Of a DNA stretch of 64,000 nt, positions 9,513 through 63,958 are shown piece after piece. A model generated the notes under the pieces. It saw only the letters and a list, made by a program, of their open reading frames with translations. It was not told where the DNA came from and did not search any database. A program made the translations under genes and the position numbers. Each line of letters starts with the position of its first letter. The stretch's first letter is position 1. The stretch lies in the NCBI GenBank assembly GCA_014695325.1, contig JACJNZ010000058.1, positions 124,001 to 188,000 on the forward strand, read 5' to 3'. Source of the DNA: Cyanobacteria bacterium FACHB-502 (GTDB taxonomy: Bacteria > Cyanobacteriota > Cyanobacteriia > Elainellales > Elainellaceae).

Positions 9513-10148
9513 ATGCCTGATCTTGCTACCTTTGGTCTCTTCCTGACAGCCGCTTTCATTCTCAGCATTACTCCAGGACCGGGTATTCTTTATACCCTGA
9601 TGCGTAGCCTCAATGGGGGTAGATCTGAGGGAATTTTGTCTGCTCTCGGTCTATTTGTAGGCGGACTCGTTCATGTTGTTGCTGCTGCGATCGGTATTTC
9701 TAGCCTGCTGATGACTTCTGCTGTTGCATTCACAATTGTGAAGTATGTGGGAGCAGCTTATCTCATTTACTTAGGACTACGAACTCTTTTGAGTCACGAT
9801 GCCTTATCAATCAATACTAATGCAGTAGTACAGCCAAAACGCCGCGAAAGTGCATTTTACCAGGGCGTAATGACCGAGGTTCTCAATCCTAAAACAGCAT
9901 TGTTTTTTCTTGCGTTTATTCCTCAATTTATTCATGTTGCAAATGGAAACGTTTTAACTCAGTTTTTATTTTTAGGTCTAATTACAGATTTTTTGAATCT
10001 TACTGTTGATATTGTTGTTGCTACATTTGCAGGATCGATTGGGCAGAAATTGCGAACAAGCTATAGGTTCAGGCAAGGTCAGCGCATTACTTCAGGCTGC
10101 ACCATGATTGGGCTTGGTGCGTATGTTGCTGTTGCTGAACAGAAGTAG
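9513..10148 (+). CDS. LysE/RhtB family amino-acid exporter
   Basis: 211 residues with about six membrane segments and the family signature SITPGPGILYTLMRSLNGG near the N-terminus and EVLNPKTALFFLAFIPQF in the middle. The family exports amino acids or related compounds across the inner membrane. ATG 9513 has GGAG at 9503-9506, six bases upstream, and gives the normal LysE N-terminus; GTG 9501 is the alternative. The gene has no GCGATCGC sites and uses many A/T-ending codons, unlike its neighbours, which may mean recent acquisition. Confidence 0.92.
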   Translation: MPDLATFGLFLTAAFILSITPGPGILYTLMRSLNGGRSEGILSALGLFVGGLVHVVAAAIGISSLLMTSAVAFTIVKYVGAAYLIYLGLRTLLSHDALSINTNAVVQPKRRESAFYQGVMTEVLNPKTALFFLAFIPQFIHVANGNVLTQFLFLGLITDFLNLTVDIVVATFAGSIGQKLRTSYRFRQGQRITSGCTMIGLGAYVAVAEQK

Positions 10149-10334
10149 CGTATTTCAAACAAAAAAGCTGTCGTTTCGCAGCATAGTGTTTCCATCGAGC
10201 GGCTGCAGGAATTCCCGATCTTATGTAAGCAGATGTTCTCCCTCAGGACGCTTTTAGAAAGCTTATTGAGTTAGGAATTTGAGAACGCAAGGTCACTAGC
10301 GGCAGATGAACCGGAATGTTAAGTAGAAAAACTC

Positions 10335-11993
10335 ATGCTCTACTCAGTTCGTCATAAACAAACCCTGTCGATGCAAACTAGCAATCGGGTTAGACTCGAT
10401 GCAGATGTGTATTACCCCGACAGCGATGAGTCGTTTCCGGTGCTGCTGATGCGTCAGCCCTATGGACGATCGATCGCCTCCACGGTGGTTTATGCTCATC
10501 CGTCCTGGTATGCGGCACAGGGCTACATTGTGGTGATTCAGGATGTGCGGGGGCGCGGTTCTTCAGAGGGCGAGTTTGATCTGTTCGCCAACGAAATTGA
10601 GGACGGTTACGAAACGGTGCAGTGGGCGGCGGGCTTACCCCAAAGTTCCGGACAGGTGGGGATGTATGGCTTCTCCTATCAGGGCATGACCCAGCTTTTT
10701 GCGGCGGCAAAGCGTCCACCTGTGCTAAAAACAATCTGTCCCAGCATGGCAGCCTCTGACCTATATGCAGACTGGGCCTATGAAGGCGGCGCGTTTTGCT
10801 ATCAGCTCAACCTGGGCTGGGGGATTCAGCTTGCCTCAGAGACCGTGCGGCGACAGGGCAACGAGGAAGCTTTTCTAACGCTCTACAGCGCGGCACGCAA
10901 TCCACCGATTTACAATCCGGTCTGTCCCCGATCGGGCATTTTGGAGCAGTTGGCGCCCGACTGTCACTATCACCCCTGGCTGCACGAATCGAACCCCGAA
11001 GCGGAATACTGGCAGAAACGATCGCCCTGTACCTACTTACACGAGGTCGATCTGCCGATGCTGCATATTGGCGGCTGGTTTGACACCCACCTGCGCGGCA
11101 CGATCAAGCTTTATCAAACGATGATCGCGCAAACCGATTTGCCCCAGCACCTCATCATCGGACCGTGGGCACACCTCCCCTGGAGCCGCAAAGGGGGCGC
11201 AGTTGATTTTGGCGAAGCGGCACACAGCCCGATCGATCGCCTGCAAATTCGCTGGTTTGATCACTTCCTCAAAGGCATCGACACCGGGTTACTGGAAGAA
11301 CCTCCGATTACCTGGTTTGAGCTGGGCAGCAATCAGTGGCGCAAGTTCGATCGCTTTCCCACCTCCAATCCCCAAACTTTCTACCTGCAAACCACCGGAC
11401 TCGCCGCCATGTCTGAGCAGGAAGGCAAGCTGTCAATCGATTCCCCTAATTCTCTTCTACCCGATACGCTGATTCACGACCCCTGGCGACCTGTTCCTTC
11501 TCTAGGCGGACACGCCGCATTTCCCGCCGGCAGCTTCGATCGCAGTGCAATTGACGGACGATCGGATGTGCTGACCTACACGACTGATCCACTCACCGAA
11601 GATCTACACTTCGCCGGGGAAATCTTTGTCGAGATCTGCGCGACTGCCAACACCCCCAGTTTTGATCTTTGCGCCGTCCTCTCCGAAATCAAACCCAACG
11701 GCTCCGCTTTCAACCTGACTCAGGGCTATCTGCGAATTTCATCCCCCGCGACCTCCCATCGCATCGCCCTCCAGCCCGTCTGTGCCCGCATTGCCGGTGG
11801 AAACTCGCTGCGACTCAGCCTCAGTGCCGCCTGTTTTCCCGCCTATGTGATGAACCCTGGAACAGGCACTCTTCCACAAAACAGCCACTTGATCGAGGCA
11901 CAGGTGATTACGATTACGCTGAAGAGTGATAGTGAGGGACGATCGCAACTCCTCTTGCCCGTAGGTACAGCTAAATCTTTGCCGGAGGCGTAA
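10335..11993 (+). CDS. CocE/NonD family alpha/beta hydrolase (X-Pro dipeptidyl-peptidase S15-like)
   Basis: 552 residues. The N-terminal alpha/beta-hydrolase domain carries the nucleophile Ser114 in GFSYQG, Asp250 in GGWFDTHLRG and His280 in GPWAHLPW, the complete S15/CocE triad. QDVRGRGSSEGEFD is the usual family motif, and the C-terminal jelly-roll domain (about 380-545) is present. It is an esterase, amidase or acylase of unknown substrate with no signal peptide. The last 23 bases overlap tail-to-tail with the DUF4336 gene on the other strand. Confidence 0.9.
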   Translation: MLYSVRHKQTLSMQTSNRVRLDADVYYPDSDESFPVLLMRQPYGRSIASTVVYAHPSWYAAQGYIVVIQDVRGRGSSEGEFDLFANEIEDGYETVQWAAGLPQSSGQVGMYGFSYQGMTQLFAAAKRPPVLKTICPSMAASDLYADWAYEGGAFCYQLNLGWGIQLASETVRRQGNEEAFLTLYSAARNPPIYNPVCPRSGILEQLAPDCHYHPWLHESNPEAEYWQKRSPCTYLHEVDLPMLHIGGWFDTHLRGTIKLYQTMIAQTDLPQHLIIGPWAHLPWSRKGGAVDFGEAAHSPIDRLQIRWFDHFLKGIDTGLLEEPPITWFELGSNQWRKFDRFPTSNPQTFYLQTTGLAAMSEQEGKLSIDSPNSLLPDTLIHDPWRPVPSLGGHAAFPAGSFDRSAIDGRSDVLTYTTDPLTEDLHFAGEIFVEICATANTPSFDLCAVLSEIKPNGSAFNLTQGYLRISSPATSHRIALQPVCARIAGGNSLRLSLSAACFPAYVMNPGTGTLPQNSHLIEAQVITITLKSDSEGRSQLLLPVGTAKSLPEA

Positions 11994-43502: not shown

Positions 43503-45797
43503 TCAGGCAGAAATGACTTCATAAATAAAGCTAAACGCTGCCCACTGGTTGACATCGAATGCATAAACATCCGCTGGGGCGTCGGTCTGATGCAAATCCT
43601 GTAAAATTGCCTGAACCAGAGCCAGGAACTGCGTAAAGTTGCTCATTCTCTGGGGGCTGCTAACTCGCAGTTTATTGTTCAGCAGTTCAACCGTCTGGGC
43701 GAAGGGAGAACGGCTCAAGATCAAATGAGTTTCTGTGATGCCGCTTGAAGGCTGAATCAGGGAATCTGCATCGGTTTGGAGCAGGGTATGGGTTGCTCCT
43801 GGCGCGATCGAACTGGGTGTTTGCGAGGCAGGTGAGGAGTCATTTGCGAATCCGGGGGGATATACCACCGGAATACCCTCTGCATCTAGCCCCAAGCCAA
43901 TCCAATAAAGGGGACGATCGCTGTAGTTTAGGATTTGATACTGAATCCGACTACCGATCGCGACCTCCGGCAACCCAGTGGTCTGTAAGTCAGCGTAGGG
44001 CTGCGGCGGAGCCCAGGGGGCACGAGCGGTTTCCTGCTGAGAAATAATTTGCTCCTGGGGGGCAGTCGTAAGCAGCGTTGCCCGCACTCCCAAACGGGAA
44101 GACCCCTGATTTTCCAGTAGCCGCAGCAGCTTATTGGCAAACAATGCCTGTAACTGAGGAGTCATGCGATGAATTGCTGTTTTTACCGCTTCGTCGTCCT
44201 GGTTCAGAGAAGTGTAGATTGCGCTGCGATCGAGGAAAAACAAGGCATAGCCGCGCTTGCTGCTGGGCGGCTCGAGGGTTAAAGCTGGAGTTGCTGAGCC
44301 TGGAGAGTTCGGTGACGTGGGTGGCAGAGCAGCAGTCAGCGTCGCAGTTTTAAGCTGGGTTTTCCCAAATAGCAAATCGGCAGACTGTTCGCCTGCAATC
44401 ACTGAGGAAACCTGCGGAATTGTAGCAAAGGCACTGGTCGCATCGACTCGCTCAACCCGCTCCAGGCTTGCATCTAAGCCAACGGTCAGGTTCAGATTGC
44501 GCGGCAAAAACCGCATGACCTCCTGCACAACTTGCCCAACCTCGATTCCCCCCAAGGGAGAACTGCTTCGCATTGACTCTGCTTCATTGCCGCCCTGATG
44601 CTTGGCTTTCGCCATCAGTCCTTCCCGCGATCGAAGCTGAAGCAGCCTGGGTGATTGATTTTCTGAGTCAGCAGGCATCACGGCGAACAGCGAAGCCCCT
44701 ACGTTTTCCAGCACGATCGCAGGCAGTCCCCCCAGCCAAAGCTGCACCTTTCCCTCTTCGTCGATCGATCGAACAACGCCATCTGCGCTGAATGCAAAAT
44801 TAGAATCAAGAACTGCCGTGAGGTTGAGCCGTTTTTGGTTGCTGCTGTTGAACTGCTGTTTGTGTTCCGCCGCCTGCTTCGCTTTGCCGATTGCCCCCGA
44901 GGGGGTGGTGGTTCGCATCGCCTGTCCTAAACCAACATTTAGCATCGTGGTGGACGTACTGCACCAAAGCTGTTGCGTCAGCGCATAGGTGAGTAATCCG
45001 GCGTGAAAGCCACTCCACTGTGCCTCGGTCGAAACTTGATCGCCGCCTGAGCCGGTGAGCAGGACACCTGGAGGAGATGCCCAATGCAGCGTTGCGCGAG
45101 ATAACTGCAGCCGTTCTAGCAACTGCGATTGCAGGGTTTGTTCTGCTTCGAGGAGTTGACCACTAGGCGCACTGGGACGCGATCGAATTCGCAAACTGCC
45201 CTGGGTGACTCGTCCCAGATGAGTAAAGCCTGTATCCAGGACGGTGATTATCTGCTGAGTCGGCAGTGATCGCAATAGCAGCTCCAGCGTCTCCAGCATT
45301 AGGTCATTCACGATCGGATTGTCTGCGGTGGGCAAAACGCCATCGATCGGCACAAGGCTCTGCTGCTCGGTAGGAGCTTGATCTAGCAAAACCTGGCTGC
45401 CCAAGCCGCTAAAGTGAAACAGCACCACATCACCCGATCGCGCTTGGTCAATCAGATGAGCCTGAAACGCCGATTCGATCGCTGATCGCGTGGCCTGATG
45501 ATCGGTCAGCGTCAGAATATCGGCAGGCTGAAAGCCAAAGCGATGCAGCAGCAGTTCTCGTTGCAGTTCCACATCGGTCAGGCAGCCGTTAAGAGCAGTT
45601 CCTTTGGGCGGCACAAAATCACCCACGGCTTCTGGATATTGATTAATGCCAATCAACAGGGCGAGTTTGCGGCGCGTTGGCTGTGCTAAAACCTGCTGCG
45701 ATCGATCCGTCAAAGCAAACCATCCGGCTTCACTCAACCCTAGTGCTGCCAGAATGCTGCCGAACCGCTGTAGAAATTCTCGTCGATTTACCCTCAT
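43503..45797 (-). CDS. Caspase-fold (orthocaspase) homologue with degenerate active site and DUF4384
   Basis: 764 residues from ATG 45797. RREFLQRFGSILAALG at the N-terminus is a Tat-type signal, so export is likely. The caspase p20-like domain follows (KLALLIGINQYPEA, then HFSGLGS and VLDTGFTH). The catalytic His position in SG-x-G is Leu132 and the catalytic Cys position is Gly190, so peptidase activity should be lost. The C-terminal region from about 600 shows a DUF4384 domain (YQILNYSDRPLYWIGLGLDAEG). Related cyanobacterial 'pseudo-caspases' with altered dyads are known. Function may be binding or scaffolding. Confidence 0.9.
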   Translation of the reverse strand: MRVNRREFLQRFGSILAALGLSEAGWFALTDRSQQVLAQPTRRKLALLIGINQYPEAVGDFVPPKGTALNGCLTDVELQRELLLHRFGFQPADILTLTDHQATRSAIESAFQAHLIDQARSGDVVLFHFSGLGSQVLLDQAPTEQQSLVPIDGVLPTADNPIVNDLMLETLELLLRSLPTQQIITVLDTGFTHLGRVTQGSLRIRSRPSAPSGQLLEAEQTLQSQLLERLQLSRATLHWASPPGVLLTGSGGDQVSTEAQWSGFHAGLLTYALTQQLWCSTSTTMLNVGLGQAMRTTTPSGAIGKAKQAAEHKQQFNSSNQKRLNLTAVLDSNFAFSADGVVRSIDEEGKVQLWLGGLPAIVLENVGASLFAVMPADSENQSPRLLQLRSREGLMAKAKHQGGNEAESMRSSSPLGGIEVGQVVQEVMRFLPRNLNLTVGLDASLERVERVDATSAFATIPQVSSVIAGEQSADLLFGKTQLKTATLTAALPPTSPNSPGSATPALTLEPPSSKRGYALFFLDRSAIYTSLNQDDEAVKTAIHRMTPQLQALFANKLLRLLENQGSSRLGVRATLLTTAPQEQIISQQETARAPWAPPQPYADLQTTGLPEVAIGSRIQYQILNYSDRPLYWIGLGLDAEGIPVVYPPGFANDSSPASQTPSSIAPGATHTLLQTDADSLIQPSSGITETHLILSRSPFAQTVELLNNKLRVSSPQRMSNFTQFLALVQAILQDLHQTDAPADVYAFDVNQWAAFSFIYEVISA

Positions 45798-46098
45798 GCT
45801 TTTGTAGCGATCGCTATCTAGAATTGGACAGGCAGGTTGAATACCGCTGTGGAGCGGTAGCTCCCTGTACCTCATCCTCAATTCACTGGCTCTAGCTATA
45901 TTTGAGCATTAAAAGCCTGAAAAATGCCCTTTTCTACTGGCGATTCTTGAACCCTGCTGTTTTCTGATCAAGCGGAAGGGATAGAGTCAGGCTCTCTGCC
46001 GCTCCCATCAGTCATCTCAGCAAATTGGATAGAATGCTCCAGTAGGAAGGGCAATACAACTTCCTCTCTGGAAAACTGATTTAGATTTCTAATTGCAG
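45798..46098. other. Intergenic region, caspase homologue to sat
   Basis: About 300 bases between the 5' end of the caspase homologue and the 3' end of sat, both on the minus strand. It should carry the promoter of the caspase gene. No RNA or terminator stands out. Confidence 0.35.
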
Positions 46099-49983: not shown

Positions 49984-51642
49984 CTACCACAAGCCGCGTT
50001 TACCGCTGGGGTGAATTGTTGCCCAATTCGTGCGTGCGGTTGCCAACTGCTCATCTGTAATTTTTGCGCCTGTCAGGTCTGCTCCACATAGATTGGCTCC
50101 CCGCAGGTTGGCATTGCTGAGATAGGCATAGCTCAAATCTGTGCCGCGCAGGTCTGCCCCACCCAAATCTGCATGGCTCATGTATGCCCGTGCGAAGTTT
50201 GCGTTGCGGCAGGTTGCCTGGGTCAGGCTGGCATAGCCAAAATCTGCGTTAAAGAGATTTGCGCCCTGTAGATTGGTCTTACACAGCTTCGCGTTATGAA
50301 AGTTTGCGCCAGACAGCTCAGCTTTGGGCAGATGCAGCAGACTCAGATCATACGAAGTAAAGTCTCGCTTGCCCTTCGCGTAGGCGATCGCCAAATCCTC
50401 AGCATTGAGCTTTTGCACAATCCCCGCGGGCCGATCTTCTGCTGCCCTGCCGCCTGATTTCGAATGAGGAATGCCATCGGTTCGATTGGATGCTCCTCGA
50501 CGTATCGGAGAACCGGGCTGAAGCTGAGTCAAGTCTGAGCGAGAATTTTCAGACTTTGCCTGTCTTGCCCGAATCGCAGCTGCCATCCGTGCCGAAGGCG
50601 AAGAGGGAGAGGAATGCATTATCGCCTCATCTGCGCCCCTGCCGTCTGTCCGGTTCCCGGAAAATTGCCAGTCTCCCGAACCTGATCCGGTCGAACGCGT
50701 GCGGTTGGGCTGGCTGACCATGCCCCGCGCCAGACTGTCCAGATAGGGCTCCAAATCTAATGCCCGTAAAACTTCGGTTGCATTTTGATAGCGATGACGT
50801 ACCGACACGTCCAGCATTTTTTGCAGCACTTCGGCAAAGTGTTCGCTGACGTGAACAAGCTGCCGCCACATAATTTCGCCCGTTGCCGGGTCGTATTCCA
50901 TGTCCTTAGGAGATTTACTGGTAAGCAGATAGAGGCAAGTCACCCCCAGCGCATAGATATCGCTGGCATAAACCGGGCGCATTGCCATTTGCTCTGGTGG
51001 CGCATAGCCAGGAGTGCCGATCGCATACTGAGTCAGAGCCGTATTTTCTGAAGCGTTTGCGCTGGCTGGATTCACCTGATCTTTCACTGCGCCAAAGTCG
51101 ATCAGCACCAGTTTTTTGTCCTGCGATCGGCGAATCAAGTTAGCGGGCTTGATATCCCGGTGAATGACCTGCTGACTGTGGATATATTGCAGCATGGGCA
51201 GCACTTCGCTGAGAAATTGCTTTACCCCTGCCTCACTAAACGGACCCGATCGTTTGACTTCTTGCTGGAGCGTGGAGCCGCTAATGTATTCCTGAACTAG
51301 ATAAAACTCTTGATTTGCCTCGAAGTAGTCGAGCAGACGCGGCACTTGAGGATGACTGCCGACTTTCCCCAGTGTGCTAGCTTCCCGTTGAAACAGCACC
51401 CGCGCCATCTGCATTACCTGCACTGAGGTCGAAGCGGGTCGAAGCTGCTTAATCACGCAGTAGGGATTGCCTGGGAGCGACTCGTCTTTTGCCAGAAACG
51501 TTGCGCCAAACCCACCCTGCCCCAGCGCATGTACGACTCGATAGCGATCGCGCAGAAGCAGCTTTGCACCACACGCCTGACATAGCTCCGTATGGGTTAA
51601 GTTTTCGGGATGAGGACAGGCTGAATTTAAGCAGTAGCTCAT
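49984..51642 (-). CDS. Ser/Thr protein kinase with N-terminal Zn ribbon and pentapeptide repeats
   Basis: 552 residues. C4-x4-C9-x11-C21-x2-C24 forms an N-terminal zinc-ribbon-like motif. The Hanks-type kinase domain (about 33-295) has GQGGFGATF, Lys in CVIKQ, HRDIKPANLI and DFGAVKD, all intact. After a low-complexity linker, pentapeptide repeats (A(D/N)LxX) run from about 440 to 530. SpkB-type cyanobacterial kinases have this architecture, where the Cys motif affects activity in published work. The phosphatase at 59.6 kb has a nearly identical Cys motif. Confidence 0.94.
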   Translation of the reverse strand: MSYCLNSACPHPENLTHTELCQACGAKLLLRDRYRVVHALGQGGFGATFLAKDESLPGNPYCVIKQLRPASTSVQVMQMARVLFQREASTLGKVGSHPQVPRLLDYFEANQEFYLVQEYISGSTLQQEVKRSGPFSEAGVKQFLSEVLPMLQYIHSQQVIHRDIKPANLIRRSQDKKLVLIDFGAVKDQVNPASANASENTALTQYAIGTPGYAPPEQMAMRPVYASDIYALGVTCLYLLTSKSPKDMEYDPATGEIMWRQLVHVSEHFAEVLQKMLDVSVRHRYQNATEVLRALDLEPYLDSLARGMVSQPNRTRSTGSGSGDWQFSGNRTDGRGADEAIMHSSPSSPSARMAAAIRARQAKSENSRSDLTQLQPGSPIRRGASNRTDGIPHSKSGGRAAEDRPAGIVQKLNAEDLAIAYAKGKRDFTSYDLSLLHLPKAELSGANFHNAKLCKTNLQGANLFNADFGYASLTQATCRNANFARAYMSHADLGGADLRGTDLSYAYLSNANLRGANLCGADLTGAKITDEQLATARTNWATIHPSGKRGLW

Positions 51643-59573: not shown

Positions 59574-62168
59574 ATGCTCTACTGCTCTAATCCGATCTGT
59601 CAGACCCCCAATCCAGAAACCCATCGATTTTGCCAGAAGTGCCGGACTCCTTTGATTCGTCGCTATCTCTGGGCAGTTGGGGCAATGGCATCTGCGTATC
59701 GGGCAGGAGATGTGCTGAGCGATCGGTTTTTGTGTAAGGGATCTCGCATCTTTCTGGATAGCAAGCCCGGCTTGCCACCTATGAGCTATGGTGAGGTTCC
59801 CGAACCGCTACTGCCCTATTTGCGGCTGTCTTCCTGTCAGCTTCATGTGCCGCAGATTTATGACTGGCTTCAGTTTGAGTCAGAGACGACTCACTACACC
59901 CCCGAAAATACGCTGCTGCTGCTTGATCAGGCTCCGATCTACCGACCCGATAGCATTGCAGAACAGAGTTTATCGGCTGCTTCGCAGTTCTCTCTAGGGG
60001 GAATTGATTTACCGCAGTCCAATCAGTCCGACTCTGAGGTACTGCTTTTTCCCAGCTTGCCGCAAATGTGGCAATCGGCGACGCCCTTTCGACAGCTTCA
60101 CTGGCTCTGGCAAATCGCTCAGCTCTGGCAGCCGCTTAGTGAGGAAAGGTGCGCCGCAACAGTTTTGGATTCAGAACGATTGCGCGTCGAAGGCGGACTA
60201 CTGCGACTCTTGGAGCTTCAAACCAGCCGCTCACCGTTGATGCTGTCCCAGTTAGGACAAAGCTGGCTGGATTGGGTTGCTACAGCGCGATCGGAGATTC
60301 AGGGATTTCTCCAACAGCTCTGTCAACAGCTGATTGAAGGCAGGATTCAGAATGCTGAGCAGTTAGTCGATCAGCTTGATTGGGCGATTGCTCAGGTGGT
60401 GCAGTCGCAGACCTACCAGATTCAAATAGCCACTCGCACTGATCAGGGGCCAACCCGCCCGCGCAATGAAGATGCTTGCTATCCCGCAAGCGGCACTGAG
60501 CAGTCGGATGTGCCTTTGCCGCTGGTCATCGTTTGTGACGGCATTGGGGGGCATCAGGGGGGCGATGTGGCTTCGCACCTCGCGATCGAAGCTGTCGCAC
60601 AGCGAGTCTTGTCGCTTCAGGTTGAAACGCTCGATTCCGCAAGTTTGATGGTCGAACTTGAAAAGGCTGCCTGTCTTGCCAACGATTTAATCAGCCAGCG
60701 CAACGACAGCGAACAGCGATTCGATCGCCAACGCATGGGGACGACGATCGTAATGGCACTGGTTCGCAAGCATGAACTGTACATCGCCCATCTCGGAGAT
60801 AGCCGCGCTTACTGGGTCACGCCTTGGGGCTGTCATCAAATTACTGTGGATGACGATATTGCGTCGCGGGAAGTGCGGTTGGGCTACAGCACCTATCGGC
60901 AGGCACTTCAGCAGCCAAGCGCGGGGGCACTGGTGCAGGCGTTGGGCATGGTCGGTTCGTCGATGCTTTATCCCACGGTGCAACGGTTTTTGCTGGATGA
61001 AGACAGCGTTTTTCTGCTCTGCTCCGATGGGCTATGCGATAACGATCGCGTGGAAGAGATCTGGGACACAGAAATTCTCCCGGTGCTGGCCGGCAAGCTC
61101 GATCTGCTCACCCTTACCCGGAACCTAATCGATATCGGCAATACTCGCAATGGCTACGACAATGTGACAGTCGGTTTGCTCTCCTGCCAAATTGTCAGAA
61201 GACAGCCCACTGCCGTCCTGCCCTTTGCTCTTTCGGGGGAAAGTGCGACCTCTCGTTCAGTCGAGCGCTCCTCCCTGGTTGAAACGGGTTTATCGGGTAC
61301 TCCAACTCAGGTTGCTGCTCCGGTTCAGCTCTTTCCCTCGCCTCAAACCCGCCCTCTCGCGGAGCCTGCTGCTGCCACTGCAAAAACCCGAATTATTCCT
61401 CGCAAAGCATCCTCCTTTCGCTGGCTGCCCTGGATGCTGTTGATTTCGGTTCTGTCAGGGCTTGCTGTCACTTTATATCTCGTTCGTCAGAAGCAGCTAA
61501 GCGGCAGTCAGGCGGCTGTGAACCGCGAACTCCTGCCTGCACCTTCGACTTCTGCATCGATCGCCCCAACTTCGCTAGATGTCAATGCCCTGCTGCGGAT
61601 CCTTCCTGCTGAAACTGATCCAACGCCAACCGCCTCTCCAACCGCAACGTCATCGAATGCGCTGATTTTGCAGTCTCGCCCTGCCGCATCAACCGTTCCC
61701 GCACCTGTTCCGTCGCTGCTTCCCTCGCCGACCGCATCGCCCACTCCTTTGCCTGTAGACCCGGAAGTGTCTCCAGACAATTCATCGTCGCAAGCGGCAC
61801 AAAGCAGTTCTCCCGATGGGGTAGTCGGCTCTATTCCTGCCGGAAGCATTGTGGAAGTATTGAGCAAACAGGGCGCAACGGCGCAGGATCAGTGGGTGAA
61901 GCTGCGAGTTTGCTCTGTCCCGATCGTGGCACCGCCCACCAGTTCACCAACGGCTGAATCCCCGTCTGCTGCTTCACCGCCTGCTGAGCAGTCTGTGGTA
62001 GCTTCGCAGTCTCCTGCAGGGGAGATCGCGGCTAAAATTGCGCCAGTGCAGCCCGGACAGGAAGGCTGGCTCCGGGAAGCCGATTTGCTGCCGATCGTCG
62101 CACGCGATGTGCCCACTGACCGGGCGAGTTGTCCTCCGCTGGAACCCCAGGCTAGCCCCAGCCCCTAG
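59574..62168 (+). CDS. PP2C-type Ser/Thr protein phosphatase with Zn ribbon and C-terminal membrane anchor
   Basis: 864 residues. The N-terminus C4-x4-C9-x10-C20-x2-C23 forms a Zn-ribbon-like motif almost identical to that of the kinase at 51.6 kb. A non-catalytic region (about 40-280) follows, then a PP2C domain (about 285-540) with metal ligands in NEDACY, VCDGIGGHQGG, LGDSRAY, LCSDGLCD and YDNVTVG, all intact. A single membrane helix (about 620-640) and a Pro/Ser/Ala-rich tail end in an SH3-like segment with SIPAGSIVEVL. Probably membrane-anchored with the phosphatase in the cytosol. A CHAT-FHA gene follows. Confidence 0.93.
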   Translation: MLYCSNPICQTPNPETHRFCQKCRTPLIRRYLWAVGAMASAYRAGDVLSDRFLCKGSRIFLDSKPGLPPMSYGEVPEPLLPYLRLSSCQLHVPQIYDWLQFESETTHYTPENTLLLLDQAPIYRPDSIAEQSLSAASQFSLGGIDLPQSNQSDSEVLLFPSLPQMWQSATPFRQLHWLWQIAQLWQPLSEERCAATVLDSERLRVEGGLLRLLELQTSRSPLMLSQLGQSWLDWVATARSEIQGFLQQLCQQLIEGRIQNAEQLVDQLDWAIAQVVQSQTYQIQIATRTDQGPTRPRNEDACYPASGTEQSDVPLPLVIVCDGIGGHQGGDVASHLAIEAVAQRVLSLQVETLDSASLMVELEKAACLANDLISQRNDSEQRFDRQRMGTTIVMALVRKHELYIAHLGDSRAYWVTPWGCHQITVDDDIASREVRLGYSTYRQALQQPSAGALVQALGMVGSSMLYPTVQRFLLDEDSVFLLCSDGLCDNDRVEEIWDTEILPVLAGKLDLLTLTRNLIDIGNTRNGYDNVTVGLLSCQIVRRQPTAVLPFALSGESATSRSVERSSLVETGLSGTPTQVAAPVQLFPSPQTRPLAEPAAATAKTRIIPRKASSFRWLPWMLLISVLSGLAVTLYLVRQKQLSGSQAAVNRELLPAPSTSASIAPTSLDVNALLRILPAETDPTPTASPTATSSNALILQSRPAASTVPAPVPSLLPSPTASPTPLPVDPEVSPDNSSSQAAQSSSPDGVVGSIPAGSIVEVLSKQGATAQDQWVKLRVCSVPIVAPPTSSPTAESPSAASPPAEQSVVASQSPAGEIAAKIAPVQPGQEGWLREADLLPIVARDVPTDRASCPPLEPQASPSP

Positions 62169-62326
62169 AGACTCAACGGGCAGAACAAAGGAGACACCGT
62201 TTTCACTGCACCCTTACCGCCGCTGACGAATGCCGAAATCTGCTTCAACGGAACAGACCAGACCAGATAGACTGGTAAAGATAAGTTGTGTGTCTTCGAT
62301 TTGGGTCTTGAATTCCGTCCTTTTCA

Positions 62327-63958
62327 ATGCCTGACAACCCCTGCCTTAGTCTAGCGATCGCCCGGTCTACGGCTGCCGACCCTGAGCATTTTGCCATCTG
62401 GGTTTGGCAAGCTCCCTATCCGGGGGGATTTGTGCATCACGATCGGCTCTGGTCGCAGCCGCTGACCGAAATTTGGCAAGCGTGGCAAAACTTTTTCCCG
62501 TCTCGATCGCTGTCCAATTTTCCCTACACGCCCCAGCTTTTTGATCTACCGTCGCTGCCGGAGTTCACTCCCGAAGTCACCGCCCCGCCCGCTGCAGGTC
62601 AGGCAACGCCCTATTCTGCCCGACTGATGCAAAGCTTGGGAGTCAGTTTATGGCAATGGGTGCTCGACGGCTCGATTCAGAGCAGCTTTGACCAGAGCCA
62701 GGGCATCGCCAGAGGGCAAAGTCGTCCGCTGCGCTTGCGGCTGGATATCCGCGATCCCAACCTAATTTCGCTGCCCTGGGAGATCATGCAGCCCCAGCCA
62801 GGACGACAGGCAGTGTCGCTTAGCCAGCAGCTTTTGTTTAGCCGCACTACGAGCGATGTTGATCCCCTGCCGCTATTGCGATCGGAACAGTCCCTCAGAA
62901 TTTTGCTGGTGCTAGGGCAGGATTCGGACGTGGGCGACTATGACCCTTCCCTGATGCCGCAGGCAAAGCTGGCACTGAAGCAAGAAGCGGCGGCACTGTC
63001 CAAAGTGCTGGAAACGGCTGCGGAAGTTGATCCCTTCAGCGGTACAGCGTCCTGTCAGGTCAAAACGCTTGTGCAGCCCACCCCTGCCGAGCTAATTCAG
63101 GAGCTGGAGGCAGGCAGCTATAACGTTTTGTTTTATTCGGGGCATGGTGCGCCAGCAGCAGATGGTGGCTTGCTGTTTTTGTGTCCTGATGCGGCAATTA
63201 ACGGTACAGAGCTGGCGCAAGTTCTGGTGCGCTGTCAAGTCAAACTGGCAGTGTTCAATGCCTGCTGGGGAGCATTGCCTGATCAGCGAAATCAGCAAAC
63301 CATTCCGCGCAGCAGTTTGGCTGAAGTGCTGATTCATCATGGCGTTCCGGCGGTGCTGGCAATGCGCGACACGATTACCGACCAGGAAGCGTTGAACTTT
63401 ATTCAGGCATTTGCCCAAGCCCTGGCACACCGATCGCCGATTGACGAAGCGGTGGCGATCGCCCGTCAACATCTGTTGATGCTGTTTAAGTTCAACCATC
63501 CTGCCTGGACGCTGCCGATTCTCTATATGCACCCAGAGTTTAACGGCGAGCTGATTCGTCCGTTTACCGAAGGCGTCACCGAAATTCCTGACCAGACAGC
63601 AAGCTGGCTCGGTCGTCAGGTTCCGCAGGCGTATCTGCGATCGGTGGTAGCTCCCAATCAAACTTGGTCGTTGCGGGGCGGCATGATGCGCGTAGGGCGG
63701 GGCGAAGGCAACGATGTCGTTTTGCAGCACATTGGCGTTTCCCGTGAACACGCAGAAATCTTTTGCCGCAATTCGTCTGACGAGGAAGAGGAACCCATTT
63801 ATCTGCTGCGCGATCGATCGCGCTACGGTACTTGGATTTTGAATAATGGAGACGGCTGGCGCAAAGTGCATCACGAAGAAATTCCCCTCCGATCGCGAAC
63901 TCAGCTCAAATTTGGTAATCCGCGCAGTCAGGCGTTAGAGTTTGTGATTGATGATTGA
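62327..63958 (+). CDS. CHAT peptidase-domain protein with C-terminal FHA domain
   Basis: 543 residues. The CHAT caspase-like domain (about 150-420) has the catalytic His273 in FYSGHGAP and Cys313 in FNACWGAL, both intact. The C-terminal FHA domain (about 445-543) has MRVGRGEGNDVVLQHIGVSREHAEI and RYGTWILNN, the phosphothreonine-binding pattern. The N-terminal about 150 residues are unassigned. An FHA domain can recruit phosphorylated partners, so proteolysis may be phosphorylation-dependent. It follows the PP2C gene by 158 bases on the same strand. CHAT proteins include separase-like proteases and the Csx29/TPR-CHAT of type III-E CRISPR systems, but no cas gene is present. Confidence 0.93.
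   Translation: MPDNPCLSLAIARSTAADPEHFAIWVWQAPYPGGFVHHDRLWSQPLTEIWQAWQNFFPSRSLSNFPYTPQLFDLPSLPEFTPEVTAPPAAGQATPYSARLMQSLGVSLWQWVLDGSIQSSFDQSQGIARGQSRPLRLRLDIRDPNLISLPWEIMQPQPGRQAVSLSQQLLFSRTTSDVDPLPLLRSEQSLRILLVLGQDSDVGDYDPSLMPQAKLALKQEAAALSKVLETAAEVDPFSGTASCQVKTLVQPTPAELIQELEAGSYNVLFYSGHGAPAADGGLLFLCPDAAINGTELAQVLVRCQVKLAVFNACWGALPDQRNQQTIPRSSLAEVLIHHGVPAVLAMRDTITDQEALNFIQAFAQALAHRSPIDEAVAIARQHLLMLFKFNHPAWTLPILYMHPEFNGELIRPFTEGVTEIPDQTASWLGRQVPQAYLRSVVAPNQTWSLRGGMMRVGRGEGNDVVLQHIGVSREHAEIFCRNSSDEEEEPIYLLRDRSRYGTWILNNGDGWRKVHHEEIPLRSRTQLKFGNPRSQALEFVIDD

Follow-up and report, generated by a model that had tools for sequence, protein, structure and literature searches.

The window, a 64,000-nucleotide stretch of a contig from Cyanobacteria bacterium FACHB-502, contains near its end two genes in tandem on the forward strand, both with intact open reading frames. 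The first (59574-62168, +) encodes a PP2C phosphatase of 864 residues, and the second (62327-63958, +) a protein of 543 residues that combines a CHAT protease domain with a C-terminal FHA domain, hereafter CHAT-FHA. The stop codon of the phosphatase gene and the ATG of the CHAT-FHA gene are 158 bp apart, as a sequence-only reading of the locus had already described. A scan for promoters and terminators returned a number of sites not above that found in shuffled sequences. A third gene, f1, lies just outside the window, 276 bp past the CHAT-FHA stop. The features discussed below are the following:

59574-62168, +: phosphatase of 864 residues with a 4-Cys prefix, a PP2C domain, a single predicted transmembrane segment and an SH3-like tail (profiles, alignment)
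59574-59654, +: 4-Cys zinc-ribbon prefix, residues 1-27 (Cys4, 9, 20 and 23 invariant in 38/38)
60438-61178, +: PP2C catalytic domain, residues 289-535, with all metal-ligand motifs
61428-61484, +: predicted transmembrane segment, about residues 619-637 (hydropathy in 38 sequences)
61818-62132, +: C-terminal tail with a weak SH3_3 match at residues 749-777 (profile, alignment)
62327-63559, +: complete separase/Csx29-like CHAT protease unit, residues 1-411 (VIA matches of the predicted model to Craspase TPR-CHAT and separase)
63143-63145, +: codon of His273, putatively catalytic (dyad by alignment)
63263-63265, +: codon of Cys313, putatively catalytic (dyad by alignment)
63368-63370, +: codon of Asp348, candidate P1-recognition acid (D/E in 69/69)
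63614-63955, +: FHA domain, residues 430-543 (VIA Z 15.4 to the EmbR FHA domain, 15.3 to the 3po8 FHA domain)
G000:C55:188235-188837 (L012:6235-6837): f1

CHAT-FHA is matched by the Pfam CHAT profile (PF12770) with 73.4 bits against a cut-off of 24, and the residues of its predicted dyad, His273 (YSGHG) and Cys313 (FNACW), are unchanged in 39/39 and 69/69 aligned relatives. The fold matches rest on an AlphaFold model with a mean pLDDT of 78.8, in which the separase-like two-part caspase fold is present. Residues 1-411 of this model were aligned to TPR-CHAT/Csx29 of Craspase over 302 residues (VIA Z 22.3, 3.5 Å), to separase over 302 residues (Z 20.6, 3.8 Å) and to SAVED-CHAT (Z 18.1). Since the alignment of the CHAT unit spans residues 1-411, the first 100 residues probably form part of the separase-like protease unit rather than a separate domain. 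Near-full-length relatives of CHAT-FHA were found in about 50 of the 60 relatives searched, and the protein is present in 150 of 289 genomes of the class, which argues against a chance occurrence.

Eukaryotic separase has the fold (Z 20) and the His-Cys dyad in common with CHAT-FHA, and its acidic P1-recognition residue, D2151, occupies a position putatively equivalent to Asp348, where TPR-CHAT has Lys670. The conserved Asp/Glu at position 348, placed by motif likeness rather than by residue-level structural alignment, suggests cleavage after arginine. Unlike separase, CHAT-FHA is bacterial, only 543 residues long and equipped with an FHA domain, and no securin or cohesin relative is apparent. 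Over the CHAT unit as a whole, the fold is matched best by TPR-CHAT/Csx29 (Z 22), a protease of type III-E CRISPR systems that has an accessory module and, as CHAT-FHA may too, the gene of its substrate (Csx30) close by (PMC9729208). CHAT-FHA, however, has an FHA domain in place of the TPRs and is accompanied by no CRISPR effector, and no match ties f1 to Csx30. Against the known anti-phage defence proteins of PADLOC, CHAT-FHA gave weak matches only (best E 0.019, 11.9 bits), as did the PP2C protein (best E 0.00048, 17.4 bits, covering residues 1-28 only), and an assignment to defence was not adopted.

The phosphatase is recognized by the Pfam profiles PP2C_2 (42.5 bits) and PP2C (40.1 bits), and its motifs RxRNED, DGIGGH, GDSR, CSDG and GxDN are invariant or nearly so among 38 neighbouring PP2Cs. 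The N-terminal prefix matches NF045510 (24.9 bits, cut-off 24), a prefix that NCBI names for cyanobacterial Ser/Thr kinases. Behind the predicted transmembrane segment, the tail contains exactly two cysteines in all 38 aligned proteins (here Cys780 and Cys853, at window positions 61911 and 62130), and it is probably an extracytoplasmic, disulphide-bonded SH3-like (sensor) domain. The PP2C domain with its full set of metal-ligand motifs is common to the Stp1/IreP-type and PRK14559 phosphatases; unlike these, the present protein has the 4-Cys prefix, the predicted transmembrane segment and the two-Cys tail, and its score falls short of the curated cut-off in either case (152.6 of 230 and 260 of 374 bits, respectively). 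About 8 kb upstream, the window also contains a gene for an SpkB-like Hanks-type kinase (49984-51642, minus strand) with pentapeptide repeats and an N-terminus similarly rich in cysteine, which is not a conserved neighbour of the pair.

Phosphothreonine-binding FHA domains canonically hold an Arg, a Ser and an Asn in their phosphopeptide site. The FHA domain of CHAT-FHA (Pfam FHA, 46.5 bits, cut-off 20.7) retains Arg458, Ser472 and His475 in FACHB-502 and has Tyr500 in place of the canonical Asn of the S-T-N-G-T motif. Across 69 sequences, Ser is found in 68, the phosphate-binding Arg in 50 (absent in 19) and Asn in only eight (absent in 61). The sequence-only reading had taken the His273/Cys313 dyad, the PP2C metal ligands and the FHA phospho-binding signature to be intact; the alignments agree with it on the first two, and on the third for Arg458, Ser472 and His475, but not for the Asn position.

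Across 41 neighbourhoods, the usual gene order is DUF4230 (opposite strand), NdhM, PP2C, CHAT-FHA, f1, FHA-PrsW (opposite strand) and peptide deformylase (opposite strand); these six recurring neighbours come from the subset of neighbouring ORFs that was scanned. The PP2C gene adjoins CHAT-FHA directly upstream in 28 of the 41 neighbourhoods and in 38 of 59 named loci with enough flank, a set that overlaps the first, while f1 adjoins it in 33/41 and 51/59, respectively. Conserved adjacency of the PP2C and CHAT-FHA genes in many genera, which had been named as the support to look for, is indeed observed: the pair is not confined to this strain, nor is the dyad absent from most orthologues. In distant loci, just PP2C, CHAT-FHA and f1 stay together and the other neighbours drop out. 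The reading frames of CHAT-FHA and f1 overlap or abut in two loci, and in several lineages the two genes are separated. The next gene at the present locus (L012:7018-8376, minus strand) encodes a second FHA-bearing protease, in which the FHA domain is fused to a PrsW intramembrane metalloprotease. It has a canonical NSANGT FHA signature and an EExxK motif, and its distribution across genomes is not the same as that of CHAT-FHA.

The f1 gene encodes an all-helical protein of about 200 residues, belonging to a family without a name. Searches with Pfam, NCBIfam, PDB sequences, Foldseek and VIA gave nothing convincing (best VIA Z 4.8), a weak or absent match of this kind being no proof of a new fold. 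The C-terminal half is conserved and well predicted (pLDDT about 90), and the protein appears compact. Arg157 (alignment A4 numbering) is near-invariant, being R in 50/51 sequences, and sits in a loop between helices; with Asp348 as a starting point, our guess at a candidate cleavage site would be this residue.

Co-occurrence was assessed in 289 cyanobacterial genomes of the class, each at least 95% complete. Both CHAT-FHA and f1 were found in 149 of them, CHAT-FHA only in one, f1 only in two and neither in 137, corresponding to a phi of 0.98, a measure that ignores kinship; because these genomes share descent, the 149 and 137 do not amount to 286 independent observations, and fewer independent events lie behind them. 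In the 60 relatives, the two genes likewise occur in the same genomes, bar one fragmentary assembly and one weak match. Two of the three exceptions among the 289, G186 (CHAT-FHA only) and G285 (f1 only), are contig ends. The third, G071, is a natural knockout (L203, G071:C16:46001-64000, positions 9730-10353), in which an in-place deletion between an intact PP2C gene and an intact f1 has removed CHAT-FHA except for about 59 codons at the FHA end.

The two genes also co-occur in genomes whose long contigs show them to be unlinked (G259, G192, G163 and G301), so linkage is not the cause of the pattern; in G192, f1 lies more than 500 kb from the PP2C/CHAT-FHA pair. As a control, the linked neighbour FHA-PrsW reaches a phi of just 0.26 with CHAT-FHA in the same 289 genomes. 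PP2C relatives occur in 222 of the 289 genomes, and since about 74 of the 139 genomes without CHAT-FHA have one, an obligate partnership between the two was rejected. A further genome, G135, has no PP2C orthologue, no CHAT-FHA and no f1; in G192, from the same genus, every one of the three is present, distributed over two loci. Genetically, CHAT-FHA is tied most closely to f1, in a near-obligate association; the PP2C is best read as a frequent accessory of the two.

Precedents exist for a CHAT protease paired with a dedicated target. Craspase cuts Csx30, and the genes for substrates are described as commonly lying close by (PMC9729208); in Anabaena, HetF cleaves PatU3 (PMC12288457). These precedents make f1 the first candidate for a substrate of CHAT-FHA, the chief competing view being that it is an inhibitor or adaptor. 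Our preferred explanation, to which we assign a probability of roughly 0.5, is that CHAT-FHA is an FHA-bearing protease with f1 as its dedicated partner, most likely its substrate or else a regulated inhibitor, and that the linked PP2C probably sets the phosphorylation of a component of the pathway. CHAT-FHA would act as a separase/Csx29-like cysteine protease through His273 and Cys313, with the FHA domain targeting or gating it; the partner would usually be supplied by the gene just downstream, and, where linked, the membrane-anchored 4-Cys PP2C would do its part with its SH3-like tail outside the cytoplasm. The observed basis of this explanation is the domain make-up, the fold likeness, the dyad, the gene order, the CHAT-FHA/f1 co-occurrence and the joint absence in one member of a genus. 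From it we infer an active protease that cleaves f1, an FHA domain that binds a phosphopeptide and a PP2C that acts on the pathway. Weighing against the explanation are the persistence of f1 without the protease in G071, the Arg-less FHA domains, the PP2C relatives in genomes without CHAT-FHA and the unlinked f1 of several lineages.

Alternatively, f1 may not be cut at all and could serve as a securin-like inhibitor, a chaperone or an adaptor, either restraining CHAT-FHA or bringing it to its real target. The co-occurrence data would look the same, a compact helical protein with a confidently predicted C-terminal half is not a disordered cleavage linker, and securin provides an example by controlling separase (PMC9729208). 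A pure inhibitor, on the other hand, would not be expected to outlive its protease as f1 does in G071, where the survival of f1 and PP2C fits a substrate better, and f1 has no solved-structure relative among inhibitors. We regard this alternative as possible, if doubtful.

A bacterial counterpart of phosphorylation-licensed separase, in which an FHA-gated CHAT protease would cut its dedicated f1 and a membrane PP2C would sense the periplasm via its SH3-like domain and set the phosphorylation, is in our estimation unlikely. Also unlikely, and supported only in part, is the circuit put forward in the sequence-only reading, in which CHAT-FHA would be recruited by a phosphothreonine through its FHA domain and reset by the neighbouring PP2C. 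The conserved adjacency, the invariant dyad and the joint loss in G135 speak for a link between phosphatase and protease, and the intact PP2C, the presence of Arg458 and Ser472 in FACHB-502 and the kinase with a similar Cys-rich start about 8 kb upstream also fit the circuit. The adjacent PP2C is not, however, lost along with the FHA Arg: the phosphatase gene is adjacent in 13 of 16 Arg-less loci and in 23 of 38 Arg-bearing ones (Fisher p 0.21), at odds with the expectation for a phosphatase that resets the FHA ligand. As the PP2C is kept at least as often next to Arg-less FHA domains, the circuit as proposed finds no support as a general one. Furthermore, the canonical Asn is mostly lost, PP2C relatives occur in genomes without CHAT-FHA, the neighbourhood holds no conserved kinase and the closest partner is f1 rather than the phosphatase. 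A phosphothreonine/PP2C loop may operate in those lineages that have the Arg, FACHB-502 among them.

The closest named family is HetF (Anabaena alr3546; NF045509), likewise a cyanobacterial CHAT protease, which is 33% identical to CHAT-FHA across a 330-residue alignment in which the two catalytic residues coincide. CHAT-FHA could accordingly be a sibling of HetF in function, with a role in cell division or differentiation in which it cuts a PatU3-like regulator, as HetF does PatU3, with f1 and the PP2C being incidental. HetF has transmembrane and TPR segments (PMC8406250) and no FHA domain, whereas CHAT-FHA has its C-terminal FHA domain and no TPR match; it scores 166 bits with NF045509 against a cut-off of 1200, and a separate HetF-like gene is found elsewhere in the same genome, so we did not file it as HetF. 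Moreover, some genomes with neither CHAT-FHA nor f1 do have HetF-like CHAT proteins, and a phi of 0.98 does not suit an incidental f1, which together make a sibling role very unlikely. The weakest alternative, an inherited syntenic block without any functional link, would explain the conserved NdhM, DUF4230, FHA-PrsW and peptide deformylase genes among near relatives, yet it is highly improbable given that these neighbours are lost in the distant loci, that co-occurrence persists for unlinked genes and that FHA-PrsW shows so low a phi.

The preferred explanation, a protease with f1 as its dedicated partner, concerns a widely conserved, apparently uncharacterised putative protease, which about half of the genomes sampled from the class possess, and a newly recognised near-obligate partner for which neither a name nor a fold match was found. 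Substrates are known for only a few CHAT proteases: HetF with PatU3, Craspase with Csx30 and the gasdermin-linked ones. Among the papers searched for the combination, none had both 'CHAT domain' and 'FHA domain'. Owing to the near-obligate pairing, the function is directly testable with two proteins.

Finally, the window encodes a caspase p20 (Peptidase_C14) protein of 792 residues at 43503-45881 on the minus strand. By eye, it reads FSGLGSQ where SGHG is expected and DTGFTH where DCCHSG is expected; its catalytic motifs look degraded, and it is possibly a pseudo-orthocaspase.
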